Source: Tubiluchus corallicola
Taxonomy: Eukaryota > Priapulida > Priapulimorpha > Priapulimorphida > Tubiluchidae
Assembly (NCBI GenBank): GCA_030141605.1
Contig: JAQGDQ010000266.1
Location: 67,501 to 131,500 of the forward strand
Direction: 5' to 3'
DNA: 64,000 bases
The notes under the pieces were generated by a model that was not told where the DNA came from, did not search any database, and saw nothing but the letters and a program-made list of their open reading frames with translations. Made by a program: the position numbers and the translations under genes. This document shows, piece by piece, positions 5,013 to 55,206 of the stretch (position 1 is the first letter of the stretch; the number at the start of each line of letters is the position of its first letter).

Positions 5013-5560
5013 TACATCACGCACAGTACTACGGCCATATCACTTTGAAAACACCGGTTCTCGTCTGATCACCGAAGTTAAGTAACGTAGAGCCTGGTTA
5101 GTACTTGGATGGGACTAGGAATACCAGGTGCTGTAGGCTTGCGGGATGCCCACACTGTATCTCGACACTAGGCTTAGGAGCAGCACAAGCAGCCAACAGC
5201 TAGAGGAGTTCAAGTGACCCAACGGCTATGTGTAGAGGAGCAAAACCTTCCAAATCAGGAGTGGAGCCCCGAAGGCGGACCAGTGCAGCATGCTCACTGA
5301 CTCTGGCAGCTCCTGGTGCCAACCTGGTGCCAAACGTATCGCTCCGCTTTCCTTTGGACTAAACGAGGTAGGAAGAGAAGGGGTTTCTGTTGTCTGGGCA
5401 ACTCAGGATCTCCATACACCTTACCCAGGCGCGCGCCCTAAAGACGTTCAAGGATCGGACTGCTCAGCCACAGTCGACGCTGCAGCTCCATCAATGTGAT
5501 CAATAACCGACTCTCTTGGCGCACACTCCATTGTCTTTCGAGACAGGATGCCAGCAACAA
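5013..5560 (+). mobile_element. SINE-like insertion headed by 5S rRNA sequence
   Basis: The head (about 5028-5140) matches 5S rRNA: CTACGGCCATA, CTCGTCTGATCACCGAAG, GCCTGGTTAGTACTTGGATG, GGAATACCAGGTGCTGTAGG. The internal promoter A box and intermediate element are recognisable, but a few bases after GATGGGA are missing from box C. A GC-rich body of about 400 bases follows, unlike anything else in the window. ATATTCACAT occurs at 5003-5012 and again at 5561-5570, directly flanking the unit, which looks like a target-site duplication. That fits a 5S-derived (SINE3-type) retroposon rather than a working 5S gene. I do not recognise the body family. Confidence 0.7.
5028..5140 (+). pseudogene. 5S rRNA-derived segment
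   Basis: A close 5S rRNA match over nearly the full length, with substitutions and a short internal deletion just after GATGGGA, within the box C region of the internal promoter. There is no T-run terminator directly after it; sequence continues into the SINE body. It is best read as the pol III head of the retroposon, not a functional rRNA gene. Confidence 0.75.
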
Positions 5561-7439: not shown

Positions 7440-7681
7440 TGTGTTTCTAGTTCTAGTTGTAATTATGTACAGATCTAAACAGATCTAATTCTGTTTAAAA
7501 TATGTTATTAGTTGTAGTTGCAATTATGTATAAATCTAAACAGATCTAATTCTGTTTAATATGTGTTTCTAGTTCTAGTTGTAATAATGTATAAATGTAA
7601 ACAGATCTAATTCTGTTTAATATGTGTTTCTAGTTCTAGTTGTAATAATGTATAAATCTAAACAGATCTAATTCTGTTTAA
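7440..7681 (+). repeat. About 60-bp tandem repeat, four units
   Basis: Four near-identical units run from a TTCTAGTTCTAGTTGTAAT-like start through AACAGATCTAATTCTGTTTAA. The last two differ by very few bases, so the array expanded recently. It lies 3' of the LRR gene's last visible exon. Confidence 0.85.
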
Positions 7682-7875: not shown

Positions 7876-8117
7876 TTATGATAGTAATAATTCCAAACTA
7901 AAACAGAAAAACAAATTGTAATTGAATTGAATTTGCATGGCAGCATCGTATGCAGGTGCAGGAACTTTGTTGGCGGGATTGCTAGGGTCACAGAATTCAG
8001 ATAACGTCATTTCGTGTTCGTTGTGAGGGTATGGCGGAACATGGCAATCAAATATAGAAGCCACCCACCAATCAGCCTTCAGCCACCTCATACTGCAGTT
8101 GCAATAAAGGGGGCTTC
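7876..8117 (-). CDS. LRR protein, 3' exon: LRRCT domain and C-terminal tail
   Basis: The acceptor TGTTTTTCAG precedes 8117 at phase 1. The frame reads GSPLYCNCSMRWLKADWW, then IFDCHVPPYP: the Cys-x-Cys...Trp...Cys-x-x-Pro pattern of a C-terminal LRR flanking domain. It then runs to a stop through PAPAYDAAMQ and the hydrophobic NLFFCFSLELLLS. That end could be a GPI-attachment signal. However, TTTTTCTGTTTTAG inside it is itself a good splice acceptor, so the last dozen codons may belong to intron or to another exon. The phase and LRRCT start match the two upstream exons at 10.3-11.0 and 12.8-13.5 kb, so I place all three in one minus-strand gene for an extracellular LRR protein. Confidence 0.7.
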
Positions 8118-8757
8118 CTGAAAAACACAAACGAGAGGTATCAAAGTGTTGTTGATAAAAGATTGAACCTCAATGTGTTTTTTAATACAAACCGTTTTTC
8201 TTTTTCTATTTAGATTTCAGGAAAGTTAAAGCAAAACGGGATTCAATGTTAAACTGTAGGTCAAAGCCTATACCTATAGTATAAAATATTGAAAGGAAAC
8301 ATGCTATTTTTTCAAAAATGACTTACGTAAAACAATTATTACAACACAAACAATATTTCGAGTTCGTGCCACTATCTTTTCGCTGTCACATGCACTTTAC
8401 TTGCGTTGGTTAAAGGGGCGACATTTCTGAAATGCATTGCACAAAAATGCCCCTCTCAGTTCAGATGTGTTAGTTTGTGACGAACTGCACGCGTTTGACA
8501 ACTCATGCTGTCATTTGTAGCAAATTTGAAATTTAAAATTTTATCTTAAAACTTGCCTAATTTGAACACACTGAATATCTTGTAGTAGCACCGTACTTCA
8601 ATTTTCGCTTTCGCTAACACCCACAACACACTCATGGAATAATTTGATGCTAAAATTTGTTAGTTTGTGATGTCATCATTAGTGAGTTTGCCTGCTGTTG
8701 ATTAAGGTTTTAATCTATTATTTAGCATCAAAAATACTTTTGCAGTATTATTGATAT
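8118..8757. other. Intron of the LRR gene
   Basis: Sequence between the last LRR exon and the LTR relic. I see no coding content and no named repeat. Confidence 0.45.
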
Positions 8758-9089
8758 TGTTACGAAGGCAGATTATGACTAACCCCTAATAATAGTAATG
8801 GGTATGGTTGAGAAGCCCAGTAATGCAAATGTACCTGTATAAAACAGAATGCATGCCGCAATTTGACTTTTCCAACCTGGCCTTTCTGTCTGTAAATGTG
8901 AATGCTGTAGGTTTGCTGATTTTTATACCAAAGTCTGTTTACATGTCATGGAGCTACTGTTTGTGCATTAAAGTTTATTTTACATTCGTACTCTTTTTAC
9001 TTTTGGCGTCTGCTGTAATGTATTTCATAACTTGTATGCCGCTCTATACATACTGAGATGGATCCGTGCTGGAATCTGGATCCGTTACA
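8758..9089 (+). mobile_element. LTR of a Ty3/gypsy-like retroelement, relic
   Basis: The segment starts TGTTAC and ends GTTACA. It holds a TATAAAA box near 8838 and an ATTAAA polyadenylation-like signal near 8967, in LTR order. It is followed after one base by a primer-binding-site sequence starting TGG. No partner LTR or pol was found downstream, so this is a truncated 5' end. It sits, opposite in strand, within an LRR-gene intron. Confidence 0.6.
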
Positions 9090-9090
9090 C

Positions 9091-9108
9091 TGGTGTCAGA
9101 AGTGGGAT
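9091..9108 (+). other. Primer binding site of the LTR relic
   Basis: TGGTGTCAGAAGTGGGAT begins with TGG, the complement of the tRNA CCA end. It resembles sites complementary to a tRNA-Leu 3' end that some Ty3/gypsy elements use; that tRNA assignment is from memory. Confidence 0.6.
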
Positions 9109-9634
9109 CTGAAATTGCTGCCTGGAATGTATCGACATTACTGGTTTTTTTGAGTGCTGCATTTTGCTTTAGGCAGACAGCTTGTCTGTACTACTCGGCG
9201 TGTGTTTTGTTGACAGTTTCGTGTTTTTACATATTTTATGTTGAAAGGCAATTGAACAGCCTTTATGCGACAGGCAGGATCGGCCTTAGCTTAAACAGTT
9301 CTATGTTTTTATCGAGTTCCCAATGATACGATCTGCCTATAGCAATGTGAAAATTGAACACCACATTGCCTTTAATTCTGCCATGATTAGCAAAAGCAAA
9401 GCATAGAGTAGCGGAGTTTTTTTCATTTGAAATCTGTACCATTTTCATTTGAACATCTCTGTGTACATTATGAAAGCATTTGGGTTCGTGGAAATGCTAA
9501 AAATTTTGATCCATACAAATTAGAAGAGGGTCTTGTAAAGGTTTACCGGGAGAGGGGCACATGTACCTTAGATGTAGCAGTGAGAACGGGCTGGTTCAAG
9601 TGGTAAAGATCTAGTCAAGGAACTTTCAACTCGC
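9109..9634. other. Remnant internal LTR-element sequence and intron
   Basis: Continues from the PBS but shows no gag or pol motif. The short open frames have no recognisable domain. Confidence 0.4.
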
Positions 9635-10317
9635 CTGCTAGTAGCAAATTCAACCTCAGTAAAAATGTCCATTGATAATGGTGCGTGTTTGCTATTATTC
9701 GGTTAACGATAAACCAGTTATTGTCGAAGATTATAAACATAAACTTACCTGCTAGTAGCAAATTCAACCTCAGTAAAAATATCCATTGATAATGGTGCGT
9801 GTTTGCTATTATTCGGTTAACGATAAACCAGTTATTGTAGAAGTTTATAAACATAAACTTACCTGCTAGTAGCAAATTCAACCTCAGTAATATATCCATT
9901 GATAATGGTGCGTGTTTGCTATTATTCGGTTAACGATAAACCAGTTATTGTAGAAGTTTATAAACATAAACTTACCTGCTAGTAGCAAATTCAACCTCAG
10001 TAAAAATATCCATTGATAATGGTGCGTGTTTGCTATTATTCGGTTAACGATAAACCAGTTATTGTAGAAGTTTATAAACATAAACTTACCTGCTAGTAGC
10101 AAATTCAACCTCAGTAAAAATATCCATTGATAATGGTGCGTGTTTGCTATTATTCGGTTAACGATAAACCAGTTATTGTCGAAGATTATAAACATAAACT
10201 TACCTGCTAGTAGCAAATTCAACCTCAGTAAAAATGTCCATTGATAATGGTGCGTATTTGCTATTATTCGGATAACGATAAACCAGTTATTGTAGAAGTT
10301 TATAAACATAAACTTAC
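9635..10317 (-). repeat. 114-bp tandem array carrying a 5' splice site per unit
   Basis: There are six units with starts at 9635, 9749, 9863, 9976, 10090 and 10204: 114 bp each, one of 113. On the minus strand each unit edge reads GCAGGTAAGTTTATG, a consensus donor, and the array directly abuts the real donor of the LRR exon ending at 10318. The leftmost edge is mutated to GGCGAG. As 114 is 38 codons, the minus-strand frame of the LRR exon stays open through four units, reading GKFMFINFYNNWF in each. A second frame, next to the donor, reads IFTEVEFATS. Units 1 and 5 share GTCGAAGATT, hinting at higher-order duplication. It may be passive intronic expansion or alternative 3' exon ends. Confidence 0.9.
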
Positions 10318-11043
10318 CCGTTAGCTCTATTAACATATCCGTTGGATGTCTTTCAGAATGAAGTATTGGCTTCCTCAGGTACTTGATGTTAGTCTTGGTG
10401 AAGATGATGGTCCCAATGACGAAATTTATCGAAAGATCCAAGTCGGCATTCACAAGTTGCGGACAGTTACTGATGATAATTTGCCTCACGAAATTCATTT
10501 GATCAAACGCCTTTGGATGGATTCTCTTTAAATTGTTGTTATAAGAAATTGTGATGCTATGCCAGACCGAAGCATATATTGCATTTTCTCCAAGTTCTTC
10601 AATGTCAGACTTCGTGATGGTTAAGTCATTTATGTCTTTTCTTCTGAGAAACAAATCGGGCAATTGAACTTCCTTGTAGTGAGAAATTATTAGCTTACGA
10701 ATATAGCATGGAAAAGCTTCCCATATTTGTTTCAGTTTTGCAGAGAACAGTTGCTGTCCCACATCGCCACATACAGCATTGCATAGGCCAATTGGCGCCA
10801 CCTGGTGTGAATACCAGTATGTGCATTCTTTGAAGCGCACATCACAGGCATACATTTTTGCTGGTGTTGTGACTGGCTGCGCTGTAGTAGTAGTTGTTAC
10901 GTTCTCCACACAATGTGAGACGCTTTGTGCTGAAAAAGACACTTCGGGACATGTCCTTAAGCAAGGTTTGCATTTAACTTTAGCCTCATTCCAATATTTC
11001 GATAGTGCCCATTTCAGAAGACAACCACATAAAATTTCATTAC
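10318..11043 (-). CDS. LRR protein, middle exon: LRRCT, linker and LRR repeats
   Basis: The acceptor TTTCGTTACAG precedes 11043 and the donor GTAAGTT follows 10318. The exon is 726 nt, enters and leaves at phase 1, and is therefore symmetric. It opens with GNEILCGCLLKWALSKYW (LRRCT cysteines), then a Cys- and Thr-rich linker with TTTTTAQPVTTP (possible O-glycosylation). Next comes a Cys-containing capping region with FPCYIRKLIISHYKE, LRR-like strands (DLTITKSDIEELGENAIY, LKRIHPKAFDQMN, QIIISNCPQLVNADLDLS), ending in LIELTG. It is homologous along most of its length to the exon at 12.8-13.5 kb. The ordinary LRR-to-LRRCT junction (L-x-L-x-G then NPLxCxC) falls exactly on the exon border. Confidence 0.8.
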
Positions 11044-12226
11044 CTGTAACGAAATATGACATTAAACAAAATGTGGTATGTTGACAGACATGAACTTGTA
11101 GCGATTGTTTGATTGTATAAGTTAGACCACGAAATAGCAACACAGAACTTTTTGCAATATTTCAGGCAAAAAACAATATAAGGTTTATATGAAGAATTTG
11201 TTAAGAACCCCAAAATGTTATCTTCATAAACAGCCAGAACTGCAGCAAAGCAAAATATAAATTATTTAACTAATACAGACTTTATTAGTTAACTATTTAG
11301 CTAATTATTTAACTAACACAGTTTTAACACAGTCAAAAATATCTGTAGTTGCAAATAGAACACACATAATCACCTTCAGACTATTTGTTAAATCTTAGTA
11401 ACTTATATATCGTCTATGATTTGAGTCTTAAGATGTTTTTTCTCAGTTGACCAGAAAGACCAGTGCACAAGTTATCGGTGTACTGTATCCACAAACACAA
11501 AAATCATGAAAACACCAAATACAACCTAACCTAAACAAGACAAACAACTAGTTGAAAACTATACGAAATGATTGTTTCTTTTTTAAATTGTACTACATTT
11601 AAACTGCAGAACATCAAATATGTTTAATATGCAGCAATTGTCGTTTTATCTGTAATAATAAATTACAGCAATGAGTTTTCAGCGAAAAAACATGATACAG
11701 GTAAATTACTAAATTAGGTTACATGATTTTCGTCTGTTATACAAAAACAGCGAAATAGCCCTAATTGTATAAAGCAGTTCAATAAAGATAATTAGACACT
11801 TACCTGTGATCTCCCTGAGTTTTGGCGCTAATAACTTGCAAAAAAAGCAATAGAAATCAACTCACAACATTCACATCATATCAACTTGAATTGCAGACCA
11901 GGTAATGTCTACCTGGGCAACTACCTGGTCACATGACTGATGACAGTTAAAGGGACAAGACCAAATTAAACAGGTAGGGAAACGTGTGTGTGCATAAGAT
12001 AAGTTGTTCTCCATTTTTTCCGTTGGTTTATTTTACTTGATGACTGATGATGAATGAGGGAAATGTTTGAATCTTCTGTAATAAGACGTCTGCTTGCCCC
12101 ACAGTGTCATTTGTGTTCCAATATTTCTTAACTAAGCTGAGACTTCCTTGTTTGAAAAGTAATTCTCTCAGTGAGGAAGTTGGAATTGTACATTTTAATT
12201 AGGTGCTGCCATCTATGGGCTATTTC
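11044..12226. other. Intron between LRR exons
   Basis: AT-rich, without exons I can support. A TTAACTAATTATTTAACTAA-like stretch lies near 11260-11320. Confidence 0.5.
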
Positions 12227-12811: not shown

Positions 12812-13477
12812 CTTTCAATTCCAGTGAAATCTGCTCAGAAGGTCTCTGTGGATGCAGCTGGGGCATCCTCATCCTCTTTATCCCTGTTCGTTCTACATCA
12901 ATTAGACTTACTTCCAAATTATTGCTCAGATCTAGAGCAAGCGTTTTTAGTTTTGGGCAATCGTATATCACAATTTCGTCTACGGTATCTATTTGCTCGA
13001 AAGCATTTGAGGAGATTGCGGTTAATTTTCTGAGGCGCTTCAACATCAATGCATAATTAACAGTTCCGTATATAGATGCTTCATGAATCATTTCAATTTC
13101 AGAGTCCGCTATTTCAAGTTCGTCTATAACCTTTCCTTTTAGAAAATATTGTGGTAATTCTTTTTCCTGGTAGTTAGCAATAAAAAAATTTCGAGTCCAA
13201 ATGGGAAGTGATTGTAAGATTAATGTCAAGTCAGATTGAAAGAGTTTCTCAAAGTAACCGCATGCTACAAAGCATCCTTTGCGATCATCAAAAAATTCCA
13301 CAATAATACACTTTGATATAGCGAATCCACACACGTCATCTGTACAATTGAGAAAATCTCCAATTTTTATTTCTTTCTCTGTGTGCTTGAAAGGTGGTAT
13401 ATTGCAATCAAGTATTGAGTATTTCCAATTCTTCCTTTTTGTCCACTCCATCTTGCAATCGCAGTGCAGTGGATTTT
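12812..13477 (-). CDS. LRR protein, upstream exon: LRRCT, linker and LRR repeats
   Basis: The acceptor CTAATTTTAG precedes 13477 and the donor GTAAGG follows 12812. The exon is 666 nt and phase 1-1. It opens NPLHCDCKMEWTKRKNW, then ILDCNIPPF (LRRCT). Residues around CTDDVCGFAISKC form a Cys cluster. Then come LPIWTRNFFIANYQEKELP, LEIADSEIEMIHEASIY, LRKLTAISSNAFEQID, YDCPKLKTLALDLSNN and a final strand ISLELKG. It aligns with the 10.3-11.0 kb exon from the FPCYIRK/LPIWTRN point to the end, so one is a duplicate of the other. Earlier exons (signal peptide, LRRNT) should lie further right, beyond the LINE; I could not find them with confidence. Confidence 0.82.
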
Positions 13478-13933
13478 CTAAAATTAGATTTAAAGAGAAT
13501 TAGAAGAACAATTTGCTTGCTAGTAGATTATCAGTAAATTCGATTAGAAAGAATGTCACTTGTATTGTGTATTGTGGAAACCTTGATTTAGGTAGTTGCT
13601 TGATCATATTATTTACTTTCACGTCACTGCCCATCGAACGATGATAACAGTTTCGTATTTGAGGTTCATCTAGCAGTAGTCAACGACCAAAAACGACACC
13701 TACTCAATATCGAACCGGAGTGTCGCCATATGTTTCGAAGCAGTTACTGGAACTACGCAGAGTTGGCTAAAGCTCATTATCGTAATAACACGTTCGACAA
13801 CAATGCCAAGCAAACATATGTACTGCTTTTTGTTAACTCAGGAACCAGTTCTAAAATCCGAGATTGAAAACATACTAAACAAAGCCTTTAAAGAGCTTAT
13901 CTCCAAGTTCATATAGGCCTAGTATCGTTTAGC
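13478..13933. other. Intron and possible LINE 5' region
   Basis: The LINE's 5' boundary is not clear. A short open frame at about 13805-13915 (MPSKHMYCFLL, then NILNKAFKELISKF) could be a remnant ORF1 or LINE leader, but I cannot support a function. Confidence 0.4.
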
Positions 13934-16900
13934 TTGGTTTTAGACATTACTCTTAACTTTAAAGCTAGTCTGCGTAAACCTGTTATAAAACTCTTTTTTT
14001 ACTATTCTATTATGATTTTAATGATGACACTGAATAACAGAAAATTTTTAGCACTGCTGCTAGTGAATTTTTACATAATATGGCAAAATAGGCCAATCCA
14101 TCCTAACTCGTGTAAAGATTATAACGTAACAATTGTGTATACTAGTATTATAATAACAATTATCTCACCCACGTTATTACATAATAGGAAATATTTACTT
14201 CTTATAGTACTGTATTCTATACAAGCCCTTTTACTCATAACCGATATTAGTATCCTTATGATTGTTCTAAAATTAATTTACCACGCATGTGTAACGTTTT
14301 ACTGTGTAAGCTTGATACTATGCTGCTGTATTACTGCAAAAAAACTGCAAGTTAAAGTTATTTTATTTGTGTTAATAGGTACATTTTGGAAACCATACGA
14401 ATTTACTTCTTGTATCATAGTTGATATTTCTAACGTATCTTATCATAAAATTACTAAATTTATTTGTGATTATGGGAGCCTTTGTATATTTAACGCCAAA
14501 TGTCAAACAGTTAAGTTCTTTTATTGTAACTATGCTTACGTCTTAGTTATACTACGTACATTACTATCCATACTAAAACTGAAAATGATCTACGTAACAG
14601 TAATTTGTAATGTAATGACTAAAGGTAATTTAAACAAGTTTTTCATTGTTTTTCCTGTAAATAGCGATAGAATAAGACACTCTATGCAATTTATTTTAAA
14701 AAGATTTGTATCCATCTTAAAAGTTGTGTACCTCAGTGCTATAAGACAAATGCGTCATGTCAATCTAAAATACGTAGCTCTAAAAAAATTGGAAAAATTA
14801 CAGATTTCATCTAAATTTGAAAGCACTCTATACTCATGTTCTGAACTGGCTTACATTTTAACCATAATTCGTTTACTACTTATACTTGGTGGTATCGAAA
14901 CTAACCCTGGACCCATTTTGCCAAATAATAATAATAATAACACCAACAATAATAATACCAGTGATGAGCTAAAAAAATTCATGATTACTTATAAAAAGAA
15001 CATCAAATTTCTAAATATAAATATTCAAAGTCTCGTCAAAAAACGCTGGCTGCTGAAAGATACAATTCACGCCACCGAAAATCTGATTGTAGGCATAACA
15101 GAAACTTGGCTACATAAACAAATACTTAGCAACACTATAGAATTACCTAATCACACATTAATAAGAAGAGATAGATGTAAAAATAAGAAAGGTGGAGGGG
15201 TTGCAATGTATATACCTTCACACCTGAGACCACAAGAAATGAAAGGCATCAGAACCGGCAAGATTGAATCTGTTTGGTGCAGCATTGAGAACTATGTAAT
15301 AGGAACCATATATAGACCACCCAATCTCAAACACAAAACATTTTTCAAATACTTTAGTGGAGAACTAGAACGCAGTGTTTTCGAAAATAAAAAAGTTCTT
15401 ATAATGGGCGATTTCAACCTTGATATTTTAGCTACAAACACACTGGCATACAAAACATACACAGAGCTCTTAAAACAATATAATGTCCACATACTTAACA
15501 ACAATAAACCTACTCGAATTTCTAAAACATCAGCCACAGTAATCGACCATTTCATTTCGAATAGTAACAATAATTTCGTAGCATATGATACTTTCCCGTG
15601 TGATTATTCAGATCATCATTACACAATATTAGTAGATAAAATGACCCCACAGCATAATAGTAACCAAAATTCAGTCTGGCATTTAATGAGAGACTACGCC
15701 CAATACAACAAACATTCATACTTAATCGACTTAGCAAAAATGAACTGGACCTCCATATATATGACTGATAAAATAGATACACAAGTTAATATTCTGACAT
15801 ATAATGTCGAATATTGCCTTATTGTACATGCACCATATAAAAACGTAAAGCAAATCCCACAACAAAGCAAACTCAATAACGAAAGTACCTGGACAACACC
15901 TGAACTTGACAAACTAAGAATAGCGAAAAACAGAATGTATAATATATGGGAAAAGAACAAAACTAAAAACAATCATAACAATTATAAAAAAAAGAGAAAT
16001 CAATTTAATAATCTTAATAAATGCTTGAAAAATAAACATATACAACAACAATGTAAAAACGCAACAAATACCAAAGAAAAATGGAAAATTATTAACAATG
16101 TAATAAATAAATGCCGTAACAAACTAACGCGTGTTGACGAAATTAAGATCAACAACACTGTTATTACAAAACCCAAAGATATTGCCAGCACGCTAAATGC
16201 AATATTCCTGAATCTTGGAAATTTTAAGGGAGTGGCTTCTCATATTAGCAATAATATCATTAATAAATTAAAAAACAAATCGTCTAACACAGTATTCTCA
16301 TTCAAAAGCGTCACAGTAGGAGAAATTAACGACATATTAAATAACCTAAGTTCCAACAAAGGGAGTGGACCATCAGATATTCCTATCAAAATTCTAAAAG
16401 ATAGTGCATCTGTAATAGCCCCGCATATGACTTACATTGCTAATCAGATAATTATGAGAGGCGAATTTCCAACGGTATGTAAAATGGCAAACGTGACTCC
16501 AATCCATAAAAAAGATCCAAAATGTGATCCCATGAATTATCGCCCAATTTCCGTAATCCATTGTTTCGGCAAAGTTTGGGAAAGGGTAATTTATGATCAG
16601 ATAAATTCATATGTAAATAAACATGAACTTTTATCAAAACATCAGTTTGGCTTCCGTAAACACCATTCAACCATTGACGCCCTAATACACACAACAGAAA
16701 ATTGGAGACTTAGTTTAGACAACAAGCAATACATTTTAGCAGCATTTTTGGATTTAAGTAAAGCTTTCGATAGCATTAATCACGAACTACTTTACGATAA
16801 TTTAAAACAAATCGGATTAGATTCGTTATCGTTAAAACTGATACAAAATTATCTCAAAGATAGACAACAACGAGTAAAGTTAGATACAACCAACTTTTCT

Positions 16901-17113
16901 GACTGGGCCACGTTAAACAGAGGTATACCGCAAGGAACACTACTAGGTCCGTTATTATTTTGCCTATATATAAACAACATATCCAGTGTATTAAAACACT
17001 CACAAATAACGCAATACGCTGATGACACTACAATCTACATAGCCCATGAAAATGTCCAAACTGCAAAAAATTATTTAGAAGAAGATATAAAAAAATATAA
17101 ATATGGCATTTAG
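13934..17113 (+). CDS. LINE ORF2: 2A-like motif, APE endonuclease, RT palm
   Basis: 1059 codons. Residues 1-317 are rich in Leu, Ile, Cys and Lys with several membrane-like stretches and match no family I know. Residues 318-327 are LGGIETNPGP, a 2A-like ribosome-skipping motif. The APE endonuclease follows: NINIQSL near 358, ITETWL near 388, MGDFNLDI at 491, VIDHFIS, and SDHHY at 559. RT motifs: NYRPISVI near 868, FLDLSKAFDSINHELL near 938, GIPQGTLLGPLLF, and the catalytic YADD at 1028-1031. The enzyme would nick target DNA and prime reverse transcription on it. The frame ends early (KKYKYGI then stop) because of the shift at 17089-17095; the rest lies in the +1 frame. The true start may be later than 13934, since nothing marks this ATG. 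Confidence 0.88.
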   Translation: MVLDITLNFKASLRKPVIKLFFYYSIMILMMTLNNRKFLALLLVNFYIIWQNRPIHPNSCKDYNVTIVYTSIIITIISPTLLHNRKYLLLIVLYSIQALLLITDISILMIVLKLIYHACVTFYCVSLILCCCITAKKLQVKVILFVLIGTFWKPYEFTSCIIVDISNVSYHKITKFICDYGSLCIFNAKCQTVKFFYCNYAYVLVILRTLLSILKLKMIYVTVICNVMTKGNLNKFFIVFPVNSDRIRHSMQFILKRFVSILKVVYLSAIRQMRHVNLKYVALKKLEKLQISSKFESTLYSCSELAYILTIIRLLLILGGIETNPGPILPNNNNNNTNNNNTSDELKKFMITYKKNIKFLNINIQSLVKKRWLLKDTIHATENLIVGITETWLHKQILSNTIELPNHTLIRRDRCKNKKGGGVAMYIPSHLRPQEMKGIRTGKIESVWCSIENYVIGTIYRPPNLKHKTFFKYFSGELERSVFENKKVLIMGDFNLDILATNTLAYKTYTELLKQYNVHILNNNKPTRISKTSATVIDHFISNSNNNFVAYDTFPCDYSDHHYTILVDKMTPQHNSNQNSVWHLMRDYAQYNKHSYLIDLAKMNWTSIYMTDKIDTQVNILTYNVEYCLIVHAPYKNVKQIPQQSKLNNESTWTTPELDKLRIAKNRMYNIWEKNKTKNNHNNYKKKRNQFNNLNKCLKNKHIQQQCKNATNTKEKWKIINNVINKCRNKLTRVDEIKINNTVITKPKDIASTLNAIFLNLGNFKGVASHISNNIINKLKNKSSNTVFSFKSVTVGEINDILNNLSSNKGSGPSDIPIKILKDSASVIAPHMTYIANQIIMRGEFPTVCKMANVTPIHKKDPKCDPMNYRPISVIHCFGKVWERVIYDQINSYVNKHELLSKHQFGFRKHHSTIDALIHTTENWRLSLDNKQYILAAFLDLSKAFDSINHELLYDNLKQIGLDSLSLKLIQNYLKDRQQRVKLDTTNFSDWATLNRGIPQGTLLGPLLFCLYINNISSVLKHSQITQYADDTTIYIAHENVQTAKNYLEEDIKKYKYGI
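14885..14914 (+). other. 2A-like ribosome-skipping motif
   Basis: Encodes LGGIETNPGP, preceded by the hydrophobic RLLLI. The classical core is D-V/I-E-x-N-P-G-P; here Gly replaces the usual Asp. Skipping would occur between Gly and the final Pro, releasing the endonuclease-RT with N-terminal Pro. 2A-like motifs at the head of ORF2 are known in APE-type non-LTR elements of several invertebrates. Confidence 0.75.
17089..17095 (+). other. Frameshift site in the LINE ORF (A7 run)
   Basis: The upstream frame stops at 17113, while the homologous continuation (AFSHYKLKMNNDKTEFMI) is open in the +1 frame from before 17103. A one-base indel in the A7 run explains this. A minus-one slip at the heptamer would hit TAA at once, so programmed -1 shifting is unlikely. 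Confidence 0.7.
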
Positions 17114-17933
17114 TCATTACAAGCTAAAAATGAATAATGACAAAACAGAATTCATGATACTGTCACCCTCATTAAATACTAATGATGCATCATCAACCAC
17201 TTTGACAATAGATAATGCTGTGATCAAACAAACTAACAATGTTAAATTCCTGGGCATACAAGTAGACAATAATCTTTCATGGGATGATCACTTTAATAAC
17301 ATATACACAAAAATGGCATCTAGCACATCATATCTCCGACAAGTTAAAGGGCAACTAACAAAGGAAACTAAAACACTAATATATAAAACTTTAGTTCTAC
17401 CACACTTCTTATATGGATGTACGCTACTTCAAAAACCCAAAAGAGAAAATTACTTAAAATTAAATCTCCTTCAAAACTATGCGTTGAGATTGATAGCTGG
17501 GTACTCATACAAACACAAGGCAGGTAGACAAAAATTCAAAGCTTCAACAACTAATCTGAGAAAAACTTTAAAATTCCCAATCATTGAAGCACACAAAGAA
17601 TATTTTACTCTGCTTTTTATATTTAAATACATTAACAACATCAGCAAACCATTCCAGAATAACAGATTTACCTTTTTTCCAAATCCTATCGTTAATTCCA
17701 GAACAAGCAATCTAAAACAAATTAGGACAAATACCCACTATGGAACGAACTCTGTAATCAAACAAGCAATTTTACTTTGGAATTCTCTACCATTACAGGT
17801 TAAACAAATCAAGTCCCTATCAGCATTTAAAACAAAATTAAAATCACTAATATTAACCAGATATGAAATACCATCACACCAGTACGACAACATACACACT
17901 AATTCCGAATTCATATACCCACGGCCATATTAA
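17103..17933 (+). CDS. LINE ORF2 C-terminal part: RT thumb and tail
   Basis: This frame continues the reverse transcriptase: LKMNNDKTEFMILSPS (RT motif after YADD), NNVKFLGIQVDNNLSWDDHF, then LPHFLYGCTLLQ and the CR1-type end LLWNSLPLQVKQIK...FKTKLK. In intact relatives it is fused to the preceding frame. The ATG at 17103 is incidental: it lies in the bridge between motifs, so separate translation is not implied. The stop is at 17931-17933 and the 3' UTR follows. Confidence 0.82.
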   Translation: MAFSHYKLKMNNDKTEFMILSPSLNTNDASSTTLTIDNAVIKQTNNVKFLGIQVDNNLSWDDHFNNIYTKMASSTSYLRQVKGQLTKETKTLIYKTLVLPHFLYGCTLLQKPKRENYLKLNLLQNYALRLIAGYSYKHKAGRQKFKASTTNLRKTLKFPIIEAHKEYFTLLFIFKYINNISKPFQNNRFTFFPNPIVNSRTSNLKQIRTNTHYGTNSVIKQAILLWNSLPLQVKQIKSLSAFKTKLKSLILTRYEIPSHQYDNIHTNSEFIYPRPY

Positions 17934-24657: not shown

Positions 24658-24936
24658 AATGATTAACTAATACTGTTAGTCTTTTATTCTCACCGAATCT
24701 TTCTTTGCAGTAAATGTTATTTAGAAATCATGGCCACTGTAAAATGGATCTGTCGAATGTTGCCAAGCTGAAATTGCGAGTTTTCTATATGTCAGGGTTT
24801 ACAGTCGTCATACTGTAAAACAATATGGAGTGCGATATACGCGTCTAATAGGTGTTTATGATGTTTGTGCAGCAGGATTTATTAGCTAATATTCACCTTC
24901 CAGCTTTGGATGTAGCTAAAGATGTTGACTTATAAA

Positions 24937-25448
24937 GAGGAAACAGCCTACTATGCTTTCCCAGAGGAAACAGCTTACTATGCTTTCCCAGAGGAAACAG
25001 CTTACTATGCCTTCCCAGAGGAAACAGCTTACTATGCTTTCCCAGAGGAAACAGCTTACTATGCTTTCCCAGAGGAAACAGCTTACTATGCTTTCCCAGA
25101 GGAAACAGCTTACTATGCTTTCCCAGAGGAAACAGCTTACTATGCTTTCCCAGAGGAAACAGCTTACTATGCCTTCCCAGAGGAAACAGCTTACTATGCT
25201 TTCCCAGAGGAAACAGCTTACTATGCTTTCCCAGAGGAAACAGCTTACTATGCCTTCCCAGAGGAAACAGCTTACTATGCTTTCCCAGAGGAAACAGCTT
25301 ACTATGCTTTCCCAGAGGAAACAGCTTACTATGCCTTCCCAGAGGAAACAGCTTACTATGCTTTCCCAGAGGAAACAGCTTACTATGCTTTCCCAGAGGA
25401 AACAGCTTACTATGCCTTCCCAGAGGAAACAGCTTACTATGCTTTCCC
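24937..25448 (+). repeat. 27-bp minisatellite, 19 units, open in several frames
   Basis: The unit is GAGGAAACAGCTTACTATGC plus TTTCCCA. The length is nine codons, so long open frames appear on both strands: EETAYYAFP repeated (plus, 24922-25527), QRKQLTMLS repeated (plus, 24953-25546) and WESIVSCFL repeated (minus, 24916-25602). Only two sites vary, GCT/GCC in each case, and both are silent in the EETAYYAFP frame but change residues in the other two. From unit 7 on, the C variant recurs every third unit, giving an 81-bp higher-order repeat four times over. No signal peptide or flanking exon evidence shows that any frame is translated. Confidence 0.95.
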
Positions 25449-27589: not shown

Positions 27590-28200
27590 TTACATTTATT
27601 TATCAGCGACATCCAATAGTTATTATCCACACTCTTGGAACTCGTCTGATGATAATTATTATGTCTGTTTATTTGTAGAGTTCGTGTAAAATGTGCTAAA
27701 TATGTTTTTGTCTAAATGAGTTAAATTTGTCTAAATGTGTTAGATTTGCCTGAATGTGAAGGAAACGTCTTTGCTTCTGTTGTGTTACTATTAATTCCAG
27801 GGGACTGACATCCAGTAGATTTTGCATTTGATGTCGTGAAATTCGTCTGCCTATAATTGTACTTCCATTTTTTCTGCTTAAGTTATGTAAAATGTGCTAA
27901 ATATGTTTACTCCCTAAATTTGTCTAAATCGTAAATCCAATTTTCATGAAATTCGCCTGCCAATATTTACATTTTTATTTCTTTCTATTTGTTTGCTCAT
28001 TTCATGTGAGCCGTATAAATTTGCCTTTGCCTAAATGTGCTATATTCGTACAAATGTGTTTCTGTTTTTTAATTTGTTATGCTGCAATTAATCTATCACC
28101 AGGATATCTATTAGTTCTAGTATTTATTCTCATGAAATCCACGTGCCAATCTAAATATTAATTGCCTGTTTTTTCATAATTTATGTACAGCATTTACATT
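27590..28200 (+). repeat. Diverged tandem repeat of about 150-200 bp, LINE tail
   Basis: Motifs such as TGAAATTCGTCTGCC, ATGTAAAATGTGCTAAATATG and AAATTTGTCTAAATGTG recur about four times in the same order. It directly follows the decayed RT, so it may be that element's 3' UTR. Confidence 0.5.
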
Positions 28201-28552
28201 ACATTTTAGGTATCGTGGCTTCATTGTGCGACAGGTACTTTTGGTGATGAGCAGTCTTTAGTATATCGACAAGATTTATAAAGTTAATGGTTTAATAATA
28301 CATATCGCTTATTAACCTCGATGTTATTTACGTTCTGCTACTAATTGTCTCTAATTAGTCTCAGATTCCCTAATAATGTGAGAAAACATAATCGAGGCGC
28401 TTATATAGTAATGAAGTATATGAAAAATAATGGGAAGACAAGTAGTACCCAGCATGTGAGTCACGTGAATAGCACGTGACTAGCTGGTTTCGCTACCCGT
28501 CTTGATAGATTTAATTAACCTCAATGGGTGTGGCTGTTTACTGCGTAGGCAG
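28201..28552. other. Flank upstream of the exon-like ORF
   Basis: No feature apart from CACGTGA repeated near 28462-28479 (an E-box-like palindrome). Confidence 0.35.
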
Positions 28553-30056: not shown

Positions 30057-31858
30057 TAGTAGGGTCAATTTGCTGACTTACCCCTAAAAAATTCCAAAAA
30101 ATTTTTTTGGTATTTTCTTGTAGTGTTTGGTCCAGAAAATGACATAGCCACATTAAGCCGAAATTTGAGCACTTCAAAGGGCCTAATTATGACGTAAAGG
30201 GCTTTATTATGTCCTTAAAGGTAGCTGGCATGTGACCAAAATGAATGGGTATTTAGTCTACAGGATGATGACAAATGCTCATTTTGATTCAAAAGCATGA
30301 AATTTGCACAGTGCTAGAGCTCATTAAGGTGATTAATTTTGATTATGTAGTCAATCGAAATTTGTCCAGTATGGCCACAATTTTCAAGATGCTGACAATA
30401 TTGCTGCTACTAGCTGATAAGGGCTACATCTTAGGTATCAGAGCATACAGGGTAATGATTCTAATTTCTAAATATAAATTTTCAAGGTCAACGAATATAT
30501 ATCTGATGCTTAAATGCCCCTGTAATATCACCCTATTTTAAGATGACGGATAAGATGACTGCAAATGTTATACAAAATGACGGAATTGCTCATTTTGATT
30601 TAAAAACACGAACCTAGGCACAATGCTAAACCCCATCGGGTTGATCAGTTTTGGATATCTAGCTAATCGAAAATTATCTAGCCAATCGAAGCGTAGTCCC
30701 AACAGTTCTGCCCGATGTGTAAACTTTTCAGTGTGCTCCAATATAGTATCCAATGATACTTTTTTCCTTGAGGGCAAGTCTCTGTGTGCTTTGTCAACTG
30801 TCACAGTGATGCATGTGTTGGTTTTGACATACTAGACGGCAGCAAAACTTTCAAGCACAAACATGCGAGACACCAAATTATTCTGCTACCTCTTCGACAC
30901 TTACTATGTGAACCAGCTATCCTTTTTCCTCACCTGGCAAAGCCTGAAGTCTGGTTGCAACCAGTAACAGCTGACTCAACTGATTATTTTCAGGGCCTAT
31001 GCCATTCACAAGTTAATGATAAACTATATGCCTACGGTGTTCGGCCTCTTCCAGACATAAAGCAGAGGGTAGTACCTTGCTACGTTGTGACAGTACGTGC
31101 ATGTTAGTTTATGGAACTCACTACCTAGTGAAATAAAACAAATAAAATATAGTTGACAGAACACAAGGATTTTGTTCACAATTCCTGAAGGATATGGTCT
31201 TTACGAGTTGGCAACAGCCACCTTGTCGGCCATCTTGAATGTTGTGGTTATATTAGATAATTTTCGATTGGCTCCATATCCAATATAAATTAACCGGATG
31301 GGGTTTAGCATTGTACACAGTTTCGTGTTTTTAAGTCAAAATGAGCCAATTCCGTCATTTTGTACAACAGTTGCAGCCATCTTGAAATGGGGTGATATTA
31401 CAGGGGCATTTAAACATCAGATATAAATTGCTTGACTTTTTAACTTATATTTAGACACCAAAATCATTACCCTGTGTGCTCGGATATCTAAGACAGTCCT
31501 TATAGGCTAGTAACAACAATATTGTCAGCCATCTTGAAAATTGTGGCCACATTGGACGAATCTCGATTGACATGATAATCAAAATTAATCACCTTAGTGA
31601 GCTCTAGCACTGTGCAAAGTTTATACTTTTGATTCAAAATGAGCATTTTTCTCCATCCTAGTAGACTAAATACACATTCAGTTTAGTCAAATGGTGTCTA
31701 AATTCTTTGACGTCATAATTAGACCTTTGCAGTGCTCAAATTTCGACCTAATTTGGGTTCTTTGGGTTAAAAACTACAAGAAAAACGCCGAAAAACGTTT
31801 TCTGGCAATTTTTTTAGGCTTAGGGTTATTTTTTCCATTTTACTGACCTTACTATAAG
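30057..31858. mobile_element. Large foldback element with arms of about 600 bp
   Basis: The left arm at about 30057-30679 is repeated inverted at about 31255-31858. Paired landmarks are TCTAATTATGACGTCAAAG-like near 30185 and 31720, CTAGAGCTCATTAAGGTGATT near 30315 and its complement near 31595, GGGTAATGATT near 30450 and 31470, and AATCGAAAATTATCT at 30665-30679 and 31255-31269. Within each arm a unit starting GCTCATTTTGATTNAAAA occurs twice about 320 bases apart. The loop of about 575 bases includes a scrap of LINE C-terminus at 31109-31147. There is no transposase, so it is non-autonomous. Arms have diverged moderately. No clear target duplication is seen. Confidence 0.8.
31109..31147 (+). 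pseudogene. Scrap of CR1-like RT C-terminus
   Basis: Encodes LWNSLPSEIKQIK, matching LWNSLPLQVKQIK near the end of the 14-18 kb LINE. It sits in the loop of the foldback element. Confidence 0.55.
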
Positions 31859-43783: not shown

Positions 43784-44100
43784 CTTCCGGAACTTTTCGA
43801 CTTCTTCGTTGATCTCAGCGTGCTTGGGCAGCCACCCTTCTCGGACGTAGCGTATGACTGTAGCACTGGATCTTTCCCTGACTCTTGTTGGAGGACGTTG
43901 GTGTTCACTGGCTTGACTTGAAGACTGAGAACTTTGATGGCATATACCATGTCCATGTCTTCACCATTTTTCTCCCTGTCGAAGTCGTTGTCGTCTCCAG
44001 ATGGTAAGCGACTAAGGGCATCTGCATTGCCGTGGTCTGCTGTCTTTTGGTACTCGTTAGTGTAGTCAAACTGTTTAGCCACAGGGCCCATTAGCTGCAA
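43784..44100 (-). pseudogene. Region between RNase H and integrase
   Basis: The frame reads FDYTNEYQKTADHGNADALSRL; the ADALSRLP motif is the classic end of the RNase H/connection region in Ty3/gypsy pol. A variable linker rich in Asp and Lys follows, and a frameshift separates it from the integrase zinc finger. Confidence 0.75.
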
Positions 44101-44836
44101 GAAGTGGCATCCCCTTCTTCGGTCCGAAGTGAGAAGTTAGTGGCTTAAGATCAGTCACCAGTGTGAAATGACGCCCGTAGAGGTACTGGTAGAATTTCCG
44201 TAAGCCGAAGATAATGACTAGGGCTTCCTTATAAATTTGGCTGTAGTTCCTTTCTGCAACCGTGGGAGTCCTGGACACATTGGCAATTGGGCACTCGCTT
44301 CCGTCCAGATTGCGATGAAACAGGACAGCTCCAATTCCAACATTGGATGCATCACAAGCCAATCCCAGAGGCTTGTCTGGGTCGAAATGCACAACGACTT
44401 GATCTGAGGATAGCACATTTTTCAACAGATCAAATGCTGTTTGCTCCTCATCTCCCCACTTCCAAGGGACTGTCTTCTTGGCCAAGCGGTAAAGAGGCTC
44501 TCCCATAGTATCCAAGTTTGGGATGAACTTCCCGTAGAACTGAACCAAGCCCAGGAAAGACTTCAAGCTTGAGACGTCTGTAGGAGGTGGCATCTTCATG
44601 ACTGCCTCGACCTGGGATCCTTTTGCAACTCCTTCGGTCGATAGGGTGTGTCTAAGATATTCCACTCTTGGTTGTGTGAGCAAGCTCTTTTCATGACGAC
44701 ATCTTAGTCCTTTGTTATTCAGACGAGTGAGCAAGCGTCTCAGGTTGCTCAGGCGGTCATTGGCATCTTGTCCGCCGACGAGCATATCGTCTTGGAAGAT
44801 GACAACTCCAGGCAGATCACTGGTCAGGTTCTCCAT
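44075..44836 (-). pseudogene. RT C-terminal half and RNase H
   Basis: An open frame of 253 codons. It starts within RT: VVIFQDDMLVGG (the F-x-D-D catalytic pair; YxDD is usual), then SFLGLVQFYGKFIPN. RNase H follows: LACDASNVGIGAVL (first Asp), YKEALVIIFGLRKFYQYLYG (Glu) and TLVTDLKPL (second Asp; TDHKPL is usual). It loses frame after HFGPKKGMPLL, where the neighbouring frame at 44100 continues. Confidence 0.85.
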
Positions 44837-45364
44837 GATCTCCTGAAAGTAAATAGGCGCTGACTTGATTCCGAAAAGAAGTCGTTACTACAGGAGTACA
44901 CCACAGTGGGTACTGAGAGCTAGCCTGCGTTGACTCTCGGGTGCCAGCTTAATCTGGTTGTCGGCATCAGCAAGGTCGATCTTCGTGTAGCCATATCTGC
45001 CTCCCAGCTTCTGCATCAGTTCCTCTGGGAGTGGCATTGGGTGACGGTGGTCCTCTAGCTGATCGTTGATGCCGACTGAGTAGTCACCACAGATCCACAA
45101 CTTGGGCTTCTGAGTGCCAGGAGTGTAAGCTTTACGAATCGGTACCACTGGCGTTCCGAACTGGACTGGCTTCCAGACACCTTTGGCGATCCCTTCTTCG
45201 TAACCTTTGGCCAGGTCATCATGAAGACCGAATGGAACCGGTCGTGCCTTGTGAAAAACCGGCTTCGCGTCAGACTTGAACTTCACTTCCAGCTCGAACA
45301 GCTTCTTTGAAGACATCTGGGAACTCGTCACACACGTTGTGGCAATCTCGTTGCAGGGAAGCAT
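44837..45364 (-). pseudogene. RT N-terminal half
   Basis: The frame gives VFHKARPVPFGLHDDLAKG, then GVWKPVQFGTPVVPIRKA, CGDYSVGINDQLEDHRHPMP (RT motif 1-2 region) and YGYTKIDLADADNQIKL (motif A, with one catalytic Asp). It runs into two consecutive in-frame stops (TAG, TAA) near 44885, after which the same frame resumes with RLLFGIKSAPIYFQEIM. YSKIDLSDAYLQI is usual, so several residues have drifted. Confidence 0.85.
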
Positions 45365-51540: not shown

Positions 51541-53256
51541 ATCATTGGTTTAAACTCGTTCTAATTATGTCATGTATATTGTAACAGTGTAACAGGACTT
51601 GTATGGTCTCTATTTTGATTATTCTATTAAATTTTTATATTTTGTAACTTTATACTGTGCTAAAATTCAACCTCTTGGTTGCAACGATAATAAATAAACT
51701 TATATTGTAAATAATTACAAAATCTAACGCAAAACGCGCAATGAGAGACAACGAAAATAAGCATCTGATTATCTAGACAAAATGGTGTTTTATTTACGGC
51801 TTACATGCCATACTTATATTGTTTTTGCAATTTTAACTTAAATTGTTAAAATAATTAGAGAACAGCACAGCGAAAAAAATTACGACGTGAGCTATAAAAT
51901 TTTTTATCGCCAACAGATTGTTTATATACGCGCGAAGGACGATAATAATTCATCAAAATTAGATTTTCAAAAGCATTAATGGCGTCATTACCATTTATAA
52001 CAGAAGAAAGCAAGGCTGTTTTTTGACACAGCTTGACTTTGTCAGAAATCGAATTAAACGCGTTTCCAATAACATGTCTGAATGAATTTGTCATTAGTAA
52101 CTCACAATTATACATTTGCTATGACAATACAACTAATTTACAATCAAGTTATCAAATCAGTTTCAGCATATGCAGTCAAATAATTTATAAATAATCCAAT
52201 AATCCATTAATTGATCCACTAACTGACCAAACGACCGACCAACTGACCAATGACCGTCCCGTTTTCGGGAGATATTACTAAAACACGAAGAAAGATATCT
52301 ACTTTATACTTTTTTACTCGGGTAAACCTTTTCATAAGAACACTTAAGTATAGTGCACTGAAGAGTTGCTAGTAGATGGTTCCCTTGTTTAATAATATAG
52401 GTTTTATAGGACTGTGAGTCTAGGAATTATTCTTGTACCACATTGCACTAATGCAGCCTCGGTGATTTAAGGTAGCAAAGGGCAGGTTGTACGTATGATG
52501 TGGTCCGTTGCGTTGGCTTCTGCTCGGCTGTGACGATCTATGTTAATTAAATGTCTTAAGCACTCACTATTGCAATTACTTGCATTTACATTATTCACTC
52601 TCAATAGAAGTCATTTAGTCAGCCTAGGAAGCCATCAGCCCAGTCACGTGACAGCATTCAGCAAACAGGTTTAATTACTGAGGCTATCATTAAATGAATC
52701 ATGTAGGCAGCAGTTATTGTGCACATTTATTCACACAAGCTGTAAGGTAATCAAGCAAAGCAGCAAATCAGTTTGTCGACATTTTGTTTTTCCCTAAAAA
52801 GACATCCACTGTATGTCTAACAAAATTTGGGAGAAAGAGAGATTATTTTATTATGATGATTCATTTATTCCAAGAATGCAGAAGTGATCTCCAAAACATG
52901 TCCTCTAATCCCAGTACAAACAGCTAACTGTAGCATGTCGAATGCACGAAAAAGTACGTAATTATATACCTATCTGAATTTTTCCTATGCTCTATTATAA
53001 TGCTAGCGGCTTAACCTTTTTTCAAAATGTTGCCTTTTAGTTTTGATGAATCAGTGTTCTCCTTTTAGATATTCTAAAACCACAGCTTGTCTCCACTAAA
53101 TTTAGTTTAGCCGCTCAAAAATTGCATTAATGCGCGTTTCTAGTTTTCTGTTTATATCTTTCCGGTTGTCCTTCACCGAGTGGTTTTGACAAGTACGAAT
53201 ACACATATGAGAGTTACAAAAAGATGATCACGTTGTTATTGCGTTCCACGGATAGG
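51541..53256. other. Non-coding with one doubtful minus-strand ORF
   Basis: The minus-strand frame at 51855-52112 (MYNCELLMTNSFRHVIGN, then ISDKVKLCQKTALLSSVI) is open for 86 codons and has a possible TCATAG acceptor, but I recognise nothing in it. A CTGACCAA/CGACCGACC simple run lies near 52217-52260. Confidence 0.3.
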
Positions 53257-53500
53257 TTAAACATTAACTCCCAACCACTTAGACTTTGAGCTCCAGTACG
53301 ATATCAAGTTCTCAGGGGTAATAATCTTCGTGTTTTTGTGTTTAGAGTAGCGTAACAATCTGTTCGTACAGTTTAATGAGATTAGACAGTAATTGTCAGC
53401 GGGATTCGTCTTAGGCTTACGTAAGTTCAACAAGTTGGTCTTGTGATCGAACTGTCCTGAATTTAGGGCACGGGGCAGCACAAGAGTGTCAGAAGTGGGA
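53257..53500 (-). pseudogene. Short non-LTR RT fragment
   Basis: The minus-strand frame reads LNLRKPKTNPADNYCLISLN, the IPKPGKDPxxxxNYRPISL motif of LINE RTs, continuing LLRYSKHKN and TPENLISYWSSKS. Nothing recognisable lies on either side. Confidence 0.55.
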
Positions 53501-55206
53501 TTGAAACTAACGGAATCAGGGTTTTTTCTGCATCATCGGTTTCTCCTTTAGCTCTGTCCCTTGGTTATTTTTGTATTCAGAAACTTACAGATTTGGTTTG
53601 AAAACAGAACACTTGTTCCGTGGCTCCTGGTGAGAATTCTTCTCAGCTTTTCAATTCAAGTATACCGCAGTAGTAATGATGTCACTGTGTTCTTTGTTTG
53701 CAGTCAACGTGCACCTGGTAAATAATTTTTACTTTATCTCATTCTGGGTGTCTTGTGCCTTCTGCTCATTTTTCACTCATGTCACCTAGCACCTCTAAAT
53801 GTGAAAAACAGGAAGCACCTGCTTATAATATCTAATTCCTGAAAGTATACTCTACATTAGAAATCGACTAATTGGCCTTGCATTCAGTACTTAGTTGAGG
53901 CCAGTGAGACAGTTTATTACCTTAGCTCACCTGAAAGATTCCGTCGTCTTGGTTCAGTTTGATGTGCGTTCAACTCTGCAGTTGCGCTTACTCATAAAAC
54001 GTCATTTGCCACATTAAGACTTTTTGTCACTACTCCTGTGGACGGCTGTGAGGACCTTTCTGTCCTGGTTCCTAAATGCCGAGAGTTCATTGGTCGTACT
54101 TATTATCTGCCGATTCTTACATTCCTATAGTAAATAAATAACTTATAAATCCAGTTTTCCCCTCGAGCTTCGTTACCAAAAAACTGGTTCTCAGGAAGGA
54201 AAAAGTTTACATGATTCAAGAAAAACATCAACAGGGATAAAGAAAATTGCTTATTTGAATTCTTTGAAATTGGCACTGAGAATTCATACTTTTGATTCAA
54301 TGATAAATTTTAACATAAATAAAGCGTTGTATAATCTCAAAATAGATTATTTCTGACTTTCAGATCTCTCGGGTTAGTAGCACAAGTCTATTCAGTTGAT
54401 GAAGCCGTTTAGTGCTTAAATTCCTAAAAGAAAGAAATAATGTATTTGGAGAACTATAAAGGGCTTTCAACGTTTTATTCATGCTAAAGATGACAAGTCT
54501 CTGGAGAATTCTTTCATATTTTGAGACCATTTCTTCAGCTTTAATTCCCTTTATCCTCTAAAAATTACTTTTGAAATTGAGTAATGACAGAATATTAGTC
54601 TTAGATGTTTTATTCATAATCAGTTGATCCATTTGGGTTTTAAGATAAAGTAAATTTAAACTGCTTTTCATGTATGTCTTCGAGTATTAAACTAAACTAT
54701 GCACAAGGTATGATTTCGGATCTTTTTGCATTTGTGTGATTGGCTGGTCGAATAACTTGGAAGAGATAAATTGTAATCACGATTTCTGTTGTGAAATTTA
54801 TTGCGACGAGAGTATTTTTACTGGTTTCATATTAAAAAGCAGATGACGTTAATCCTCTATAAAGATTTGCTGCACAAAGTCTCATTGCATTTACTGTTTG
54901 CCAATCTTTTATCAGTCTGTGATACCGGCGGGCTCACTGGTTATGCAGTAGAACTAAGATTAGAGGAATTCATTACTTTATTTGCAATCTATCTGGGCTT
55001 ACTTTTGTACTTTTGCTGGCTAATCAGCTTACTACTGATAACCCAACGATATTGCATTGGCTCTTGTACGTTCAGTTAACCTGTGTTTAGTATCGTTCGT
55101 AAAGCGGTTTAGTAGAGCTCAGCTTCTGTGATACCGTTACAGTATATGACAAAATTGTCTTGTAGAACGCATATCAGAGAAGGTATTCTTTCCCTAACGA
55201 TGTTAG
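53501..55206. other. Putative intron, no supported feature
   Basis: AT-rich sequence; ORFs at 54103-54300 and 54801-55079 have no features I can support. Confidence 0.4.

Follow-up and report, generated by a model that had tools for sequence, protein, structure and literature searches.

A minisatellite that multiplies the splice donor of a leucine-rich-repeat-like exon in Tubiluchus corallicola

What becomes of splicing when an exon's own 5' splice site is repeated in tandem along the start of the intron that it opens? The question is raised by a 64-kb stretch of DNA from the priapulid Tubiluchus corallicola (hereafter the window), in which units of about 114 nt on the minus strand begin at the donor of an exon. 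An initial annotation of this DNA proposed that the array multiplies the exon's 5' splice site and that the locus could thereby make many C-terminal extensions.

The gene, its intron and the array

The gene model is as follows (slashes mark splice junctions here and throughout).

12812..13477, minus strand: upstream paralogous exon of the same gene, 666 nt, ending GAATTGAAAG/GTAAGG (tblastn to the focal exon, E = 1.7e-26; sequence and frame continuity)
10318..11043, minus strand: exon before the array, 726 nt, leucine-rich-repeat-like, with the phase-1 end CTAACGG/GTAAGT (open frame; relatives; dN/dS; weak Pfam matches)
8118..10317, minus strand: intron, 2200 nt, donor GTAAGT at 10317, acceptor TTTTTCAG ending at 8118 (frame continuity; alike in two paralogs)
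7876..8117, minus strand: next exon, beginning G/SPLYCNC, stop codon TAA at 7878-7876 (frame continuity; conserved in both paralogs)

The intron was assigned its length of 2200 nt because the exon at 8117, which continues the reading frame (IELTG/SPLYCNC), and its acceptor are common to both close relatives of the gene; the exon 8117..7876 is probably the last. On a rough scoring matrix, to which all acceptor scores in this work refer, the acceptor TTTTTCAG scores 8.5 and ranks first among the 117 AGs of the intron. The focal exon belongs to a large family, with at least 150 matches scored in its own genome. Its labeling as an LRR exon is weakly supported: the best PDB match of its protein, E = 0.019, is a receptor with leucine-rich repeats, and the Pfam matches, LRR_5 at E = 0.0017 and LRR_8 at E = 0.01, both fall below the curated cut-offs.

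TRF reports a tandem repeat at 9634-10318 with a period of 114, 6.0 copies and 97% matches. Read on the minus strand, it resolves into six units spanning 683 nt, the first base of which is the start of the GT of the exon's donor; these are the first 683 nt of the intron, 1.5 kb of which lies beyond the array.

9635..10317, minus strand: array, six units (TRF and split at the donor, as for each unit below)
10204..10317, minus strand: unit 1, 114 nt, founder donor
10090..10203, minus strand: unit 2, 114 nt, donor 2
9976..10089, minus strand: unit 3, 114 nt, donor 3
9863..9975, minus strand: unit 4, 113 nt, donor 4; a 1-nt deletion breaks the read-through frame
9749..9862, minus strand: unit 5, 114 nt, donor 5
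9635..9748, minus strand: unit 6, 114 nt, donor 6
9627..9634, minus strand: decayed donor GCGAGTTG (GCAG/GCGAGT at 9634; by-eye alignment with the paralog flank TTGAAATTTTTTTGACTAG; U1 pairing -7.8)

Each unit is 97-100% identical to unit 3, starts GTAAGTTTATG and ends CTACTAGCAG, and all five internal junctions read GCAG/GTAAGT. The array therefore holds five perfect extra CAG/GTAAGT donors and one decayed donor, and the proposed 114-bp units with five intact extra donors and one mutated donor are borne out by TRF, by the matches to GCAGGTAAGTTTATG and by GCAG/GCGAGT at 9634. With up to two mismatches, GCAGGTAAGTTTATG has seven matches in the window against a mean of 0.14 in shuffled sequence: five exact, all within the array, plus the founder donor and an unrelated site at 31099 (two mismatches each). 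The exact 15-mer occurs five times in the 343.5-Mb genome, always in this array, and five of the six occurrences of CAGGTRAGT in the window likewise lie within it. A search of viral contigs for the junction gave no match.

We also considered whether the array might be a complete intron ending at 9635. This was rejected, as with 10318 joined to 9634 the protein would stop after GELKVP, and a conserved exon is present at 8117; such joining would be a minor event at most.

Related genes and the origin of the units

The exon's two nearest matches in its own genome, among the at least 150 scored, lie on contigs C94 (91% amino-acid identity) and C1527 (90%). Each of them has this array at the equivalent donor, with 2 units on C94 and 10 on C1527 compared with 6 in the window gene; an array absent or unrelated in close relatives, the outcome that the initial annotation had set against its own proposal, is thus not what these paralogs present. 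All three genes have the same intron and the same downstream exon, whose sequence and acceptor are conserved in both relatives, and their units are intron sequence save for the exon's last bases. The exon has a dN/dS of 0.34 and 0.35 between the window gene and the two relatives and of 0.03 between the relatives, so the genes are under purifying selection. The introns of the C94 and C1527 genes are about 91% identical to each other. The two genes may be paralogs, or they may represent a single locus in two strongly diverged haplotypes, in which case they would supply less independent evidence.

In both relatives the exon ends CTAACAG/GTGAGTT and complete units end CTACTAACAG/GTGAGTT. The identity of the unit end CTAACAG with the exon end CTAACAG places the founding duplication across the exon-intron border, which accounts for the AG/GT at every junction. 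Comparison of exon and unit ends shows this duplication to have comprised the last few bases of the exon, the donor and approximately 107 nt of intron. The last unit on C94 and on C1527 continues into what is apparently the ancestral intron, TTTCCTAAATGAGGTG. The array end of the window copy, GCAG/GCGAGTTGAAA, was aligned by eye to the stump-flank fusion TTGAAATTTTTTTGACTAG of the relatives, and the decayed donor after unit 6 is probably what remains of one more unit that a deletion joined to the flank. Homeology between the donor and the sequence following the array was considered as a seed of the duplication (10 of 14 positions match; 8 of 2346 comparable pairs match as well) and was dropped, because the comparison with the paralogs favors common descent from a further unit.

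The third base of the donor (+3) is A in 6/6 units of the window array and G in 12/12 units of the paralogs, founder donors included among these 18 units. The +3 base has been homogenized within each array, together with the exon's own donor. A mark, TTATCC, read by eye, is common to the first units of all three genes, suggesting that the ends of the arrays are older while their interiors turn over, as under unequal exchange.

AG/GTRAGTT is kept at 15/15 internal junctions of the three arrays. Exact GCTACTARCAGGTRAGTT has 16 matches in the genome, 15 of them in these arrays and one a single site (C2278:151586-151603, minus strand); if up to two mismatches are allowed, the count rises to 71, compared with 23 for the reversed pattern. 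Eight columns of the splice core are invariant among the 16 units whose 3' end is complete (P = 0.043). With the +3 column counted, P rises to 0.16, and 20 of 114 nine-column runs are equally conserved, which makes this weak evidence for constraint on the copies.

Donor strength, reading frame and the interpretation of the array

Pairing energies with the 5' end of U1 were calculated for the 119 GT sites of the intron. The founder donor pairs at -11.4 kcal/mol and the five extra donors at -12.1 kcal/mol, with the next best site at -7.1 kcal/mol; the six donors of the array are thus the top six in the intron, in agreement with the proposal that the array multiplies the exon's 5' splice site. 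In the predicted RNA structure, the probability of being unpaired is low for all six donors (0.001-0.032; median for the region, 0.024).

We consider it likely, on the sequence comparisons described above, that the array is a minisatellite within the intron that was seeded at the exon's splice donor, and that use of its extra donors amounts to tolerated splicing noise with no selected function. The tandem duplication of exon end, donor and approximately 107 nt of intron gave each unit a strong donor at its start and an AG at its end. The whole intron would normally be removed to the acceptor at 8118, either by direct splicing from the exon-adjacent donor or after prior removal of units at internal AG/GT sites, with the donor rebuilt before the final step to 8118. 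Whichever internal AG the founder donor is spliced to, an identical donor sequence results, so the number of units would have little effect on the mature mRNA. Downstream donors, if used now and then, would lengthen or truncate the protein: in this copy of the gene, donors 1-4 joined to 8117 are predicted to stay in frame with 0, 38, 76 or 114 additional residues, and donors 5 and 6 to meet a stop 24 and 138 nt, respectively, ahead of the last junction.

This interpretation is favored because the exon is under purifying selection whereas neither paralog retains the read-through frame, because the genome is rich in arrays (those with a period of at least 12 cover 13% of 204,588 bp, see below) and because human precedents exist (PMC4526556, PMC5954066). 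Two observations pull the other way. The extra donors pair slightly better with U1 than the founder, so our reading may underestimate how often downstream donors are used, and the retention of AG/GTRAGTT at 15/15 junctions, with the invariant core columns, leaves room for constraint on the copies.

The steps through internal AG/GT sites could themselves be the normal route, each site serving as acceptor first and donor next, so that the 5' part of the intron leaves in 114-nt steps. Each internal junction offers AG/GTAAGT with a perfect donor, and splicing to the internal AG rebuilds that same donor; human AGGT sites can serve both ways (PMC10809524). The AGs at the unit ends score 1.6 and rank 5-10 of the 117 in the intron, near one of the gene's two upstream acceptors (2.3; the other scores -0.6). 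Nevertheless, their pyrimidine tract is weak, another AG lies three bases upstream, the final acceptor is far stronger at 8.5, and the unit-end AG is already explained by the copying of the exon end, leaving recursive splicing as the normal route unlikely.

The model of the initial annotation would make the array a selected row of donors from which a graded set of C-terminal extensions or variable module ends is produced. In its favor, donors 2-4 add 38, 76 or 114 residues in frame, and downstream units act as donors in human IFI6, where three mRNAs are reported (PMC4526556). The claim that a 38-codon unit keeps the exon frame open for several units is correct for this gene, in which units 1-3 and most of unit 4 are open before the 1-nt deletion leads to a stop, but it does not extend to the paralogs, where read-through closes in unit 1 (LTGELYVYNFRQ on C94 and LTGELYVYNFRQSLSEAKQTRTTINGCFY on C1527, each followed directly by a stop). 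The array is kept in the paralogs and the 38-codon extension is not conserved. In addition, the chance of an open frame across one 114-nt unit is approximately 0.10 in a model of the intron's sequence, which is not unusual by chance. A device for many C-terminal extensions is therefore distinctly improbable, and the reading of the array as selected diversity is not supported.

U1 bound to pre-mRNA protects it from early polyadenylation, and a row of U1 sites might have a non-splicing role of this kind, holding U1 on the transcript. Six strong U1 sites do occupy the first 683 nt of the intron, and all four of its AATAAA/ATTAAA words lie downstream of the array; yet the C94 paralog manages with 2 units, and we regard such a role as very improbable. 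Hardly credible is the suggested 57-nt micro-exon between AATAG and GTAAGT in each unit: its length would keep the phase, but AATAG scores about -5 as an acceptor compared with 8.5 for the real one, and after a phase-1 exon the block (10032..9976) reads ANTHHYQWIFLLRLNLLLA, the proposed IFTEVEFATS belonging to another frame.

Comparable arrays in other systems and elsewhere in the genome

Turri et al. (1995) reportedly described the minisatellite of the human interferon-induced gene 6-16 (IFI6/G1P3). In that gene two downstream minisatellite units act as donors and three mRNAs result, as set out in a later source (PMC4526556). On that account, IFI6 resembles the present case in that a minisatellite multiplies an exon's donor, and differs in gene, lineage and unit, which are unrelated, and in that its extra donors are reported to be used whereas the donors here are known from sequence; moreover, the read-through frame of the window gene is not conserved among its paralogs. 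In intron 18 of human ABCA7, the first two bases of a VNTR are the GT of the exon 18 donor, and an isoform retaining one VNTR unit is reported (PMC5954066). The array likewise sits at the start of the intron and begins with the donor GT, but its 25-bp units shift the frame when retained, in contrast to the 114-nt (38-codon) units here, and it is polymorphic among people, whereas the variation here is seen between paralogs only. With an array that begins at the exon's donor and a donor in each unit, the window array is a real, well-formed example of a donor-multiplying minisatellite of the IFI6 and ABCA7 type.

Two further systems share the AG/GT boundary. UBC, one of a number of tandem-repeat genes whose AG/GT sites are dual-specific, is processed through a tandem array of such sites; as here, AG/GT stands wherever two units meet and the unit length is divisible by three (PMC10809524). 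Its units are coding, however, and its introns are multiples of the unit, whereas the intron here is 2200 nt and the array 683 nt; by comparison with the paralogs the window units are non-coding, as their read-through frame breaks in unit 4 and that of the paralogs closes in unit 1. Intron gain through tandem duplication of an AGGT segment (PMC4974935) likewise draws new GT and AG ends from a duplication across AG/GT; here, an existing exon-intron border was duplicated inside an existing intron and no new intron is seen. Intronic minisatellites are also described in earthworm metallothionein genes (PMC12783039). A literature search covering few subscription papers found no exon-end-derived units that differ in number among related genes.

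To set a base rate for arrays, we used the window and the sequence on either side of the other loci examined, after masking the arrays that had been selected. In the resulting 204,588 bp, which were not picked for their donors, 88 arrays with a period of at least 12 cover 13% of the sequence; AGGTAAGT occurs in one of them and the reversed word in none. At array-like spacing, CAGGTAAGT forms 395 pairs in one count of the genome and 476 in another, with 44 for the reversed word each time, and the single words stand at 5468 vs 2250. At spacings of 69-99 on contigs up to C507, the donor word gives at least 16 distinct loci (from approximately 100 of the 476 pairs, merged by eye; one of the 16, on C250, has no donor array by TRF) against 4 for the reversed word, the listing of which is complete (13 loci). 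The expectation from the word counts is 9.7 donor-word loci (P = 0.26). Because of this value, and because arrays cover 13% of sequence not chosen for donors, we do not claim that donors are a hotspot for arrays.

The CAGGTAAGT pairs fall in at least 26 loci, the window array included, 20 of which were examined. At three of these 20 loci, the donor of an exon with protein-family support falls inside the array:

C5:110000-118000 (L036), 33-bp units: phosducin-like gene; exon peptides on both sides match PDB phosducin-like protein 3, E = 1.8e-20
C9:1000-9900 (L037), ~81-bp units: dual-specificity phosphatase; both sides together, E = 5e-26
C33:94000-102000 (L039), 32-bp units: GMC-oxidoreductase-like gene; NAD_binding_8 upstream, E = 3.6e-5, and GMC_oxred_N downstream, E = 1.4e-16 (Pfam)

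By eye, the units at all three comprise approximately 18-26 nt of exon end followed by intron, and those of L039 carry the GC-type donor CAG/GCAAGT. A plausible exon was seen at the array in four more loci (L038, L044, L046 and L055): Pfam gave no match for the exons of L038, L046 and L055, and that of L044 we take to be Kunitz-like. No exon was seen at the array in the remaining 13 of the 20. Two of the four resemble the window array in anatomy, L038 (C24), with 55-bp units starting at the donor of a likely signal-peptide-like exon, and L046 (C217), with 37-bp units starting at the donor of a likely Q/S-rich exon. Separately, very similar short minisatellite units on GTTTGGTACAGGTAA occur at C195, C381, C507:224539 and C557, as if one donor-bearing repeat had spread.

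The uniform +3 base shared by founder and copies suggests that array copies can overwrite a 5' splice site. A wider generalization from these sequences, that donors are repeatedly caught in arrays that copy exon ends, that the real 5' splice site is an overwritable cassette and that unit number tunes leaky isoform ladders, differing between copies of the gene and between individuals, would be rather unlikely. The three related genes, with 2, 6 and 10 donor copies, nonetheless form a natural series for splice-site choice among identical sites, which bears also on the recursive use of AG/GT and on the rewriting of a real splice site by an array; since other conserved genes of this genome also have such arrays at their exon borders, the question can be posed more than once. 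Exon ends in array-rich genomes are, moreover, easily misannotated.

Several minor features of the window and genome were recorded. In the intron between the gene's two related exons, CAGGTAAGTGT at 11803 (minus strand), outside the array, is the best U1 match computed (-14.0 kcal/mol); it is followed by no recognized exon and may be a decoy donor or mark an unseen small exon. A 61-bp array of 3.9 copies (TRF) lies at 7442-7681, approximately 200 nt past the gene's stop codon, and the C94 and C1527 relatives also have repeated matches past the gene end. On C786, matches to the exon come in mirrored pairs of equal score (for example, 27712-28482 on the minus and 52923-53693 on the plus strand), so that the contig is a large inverted duplication, either genuine or an artifact of assembly. 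Next to the gene, at 13892-17933 (plus strand), lies a LINE-like reverse transcriptase/endonuclease frame that contains LLLILGGIETNPGP, presumably similar to a 2A-like motif; a Gypsy-like reverse transcriptase fragment is found at 44075-44884 (minus strand). A 27-bp array of 19 copies at 24936-25448 has long open frames on both strands, and a lone 5S rRNA-like sequence at 5027-5139 (plus strand, 87.4 bits) is either a gene copy or a 5S-derived repeat.
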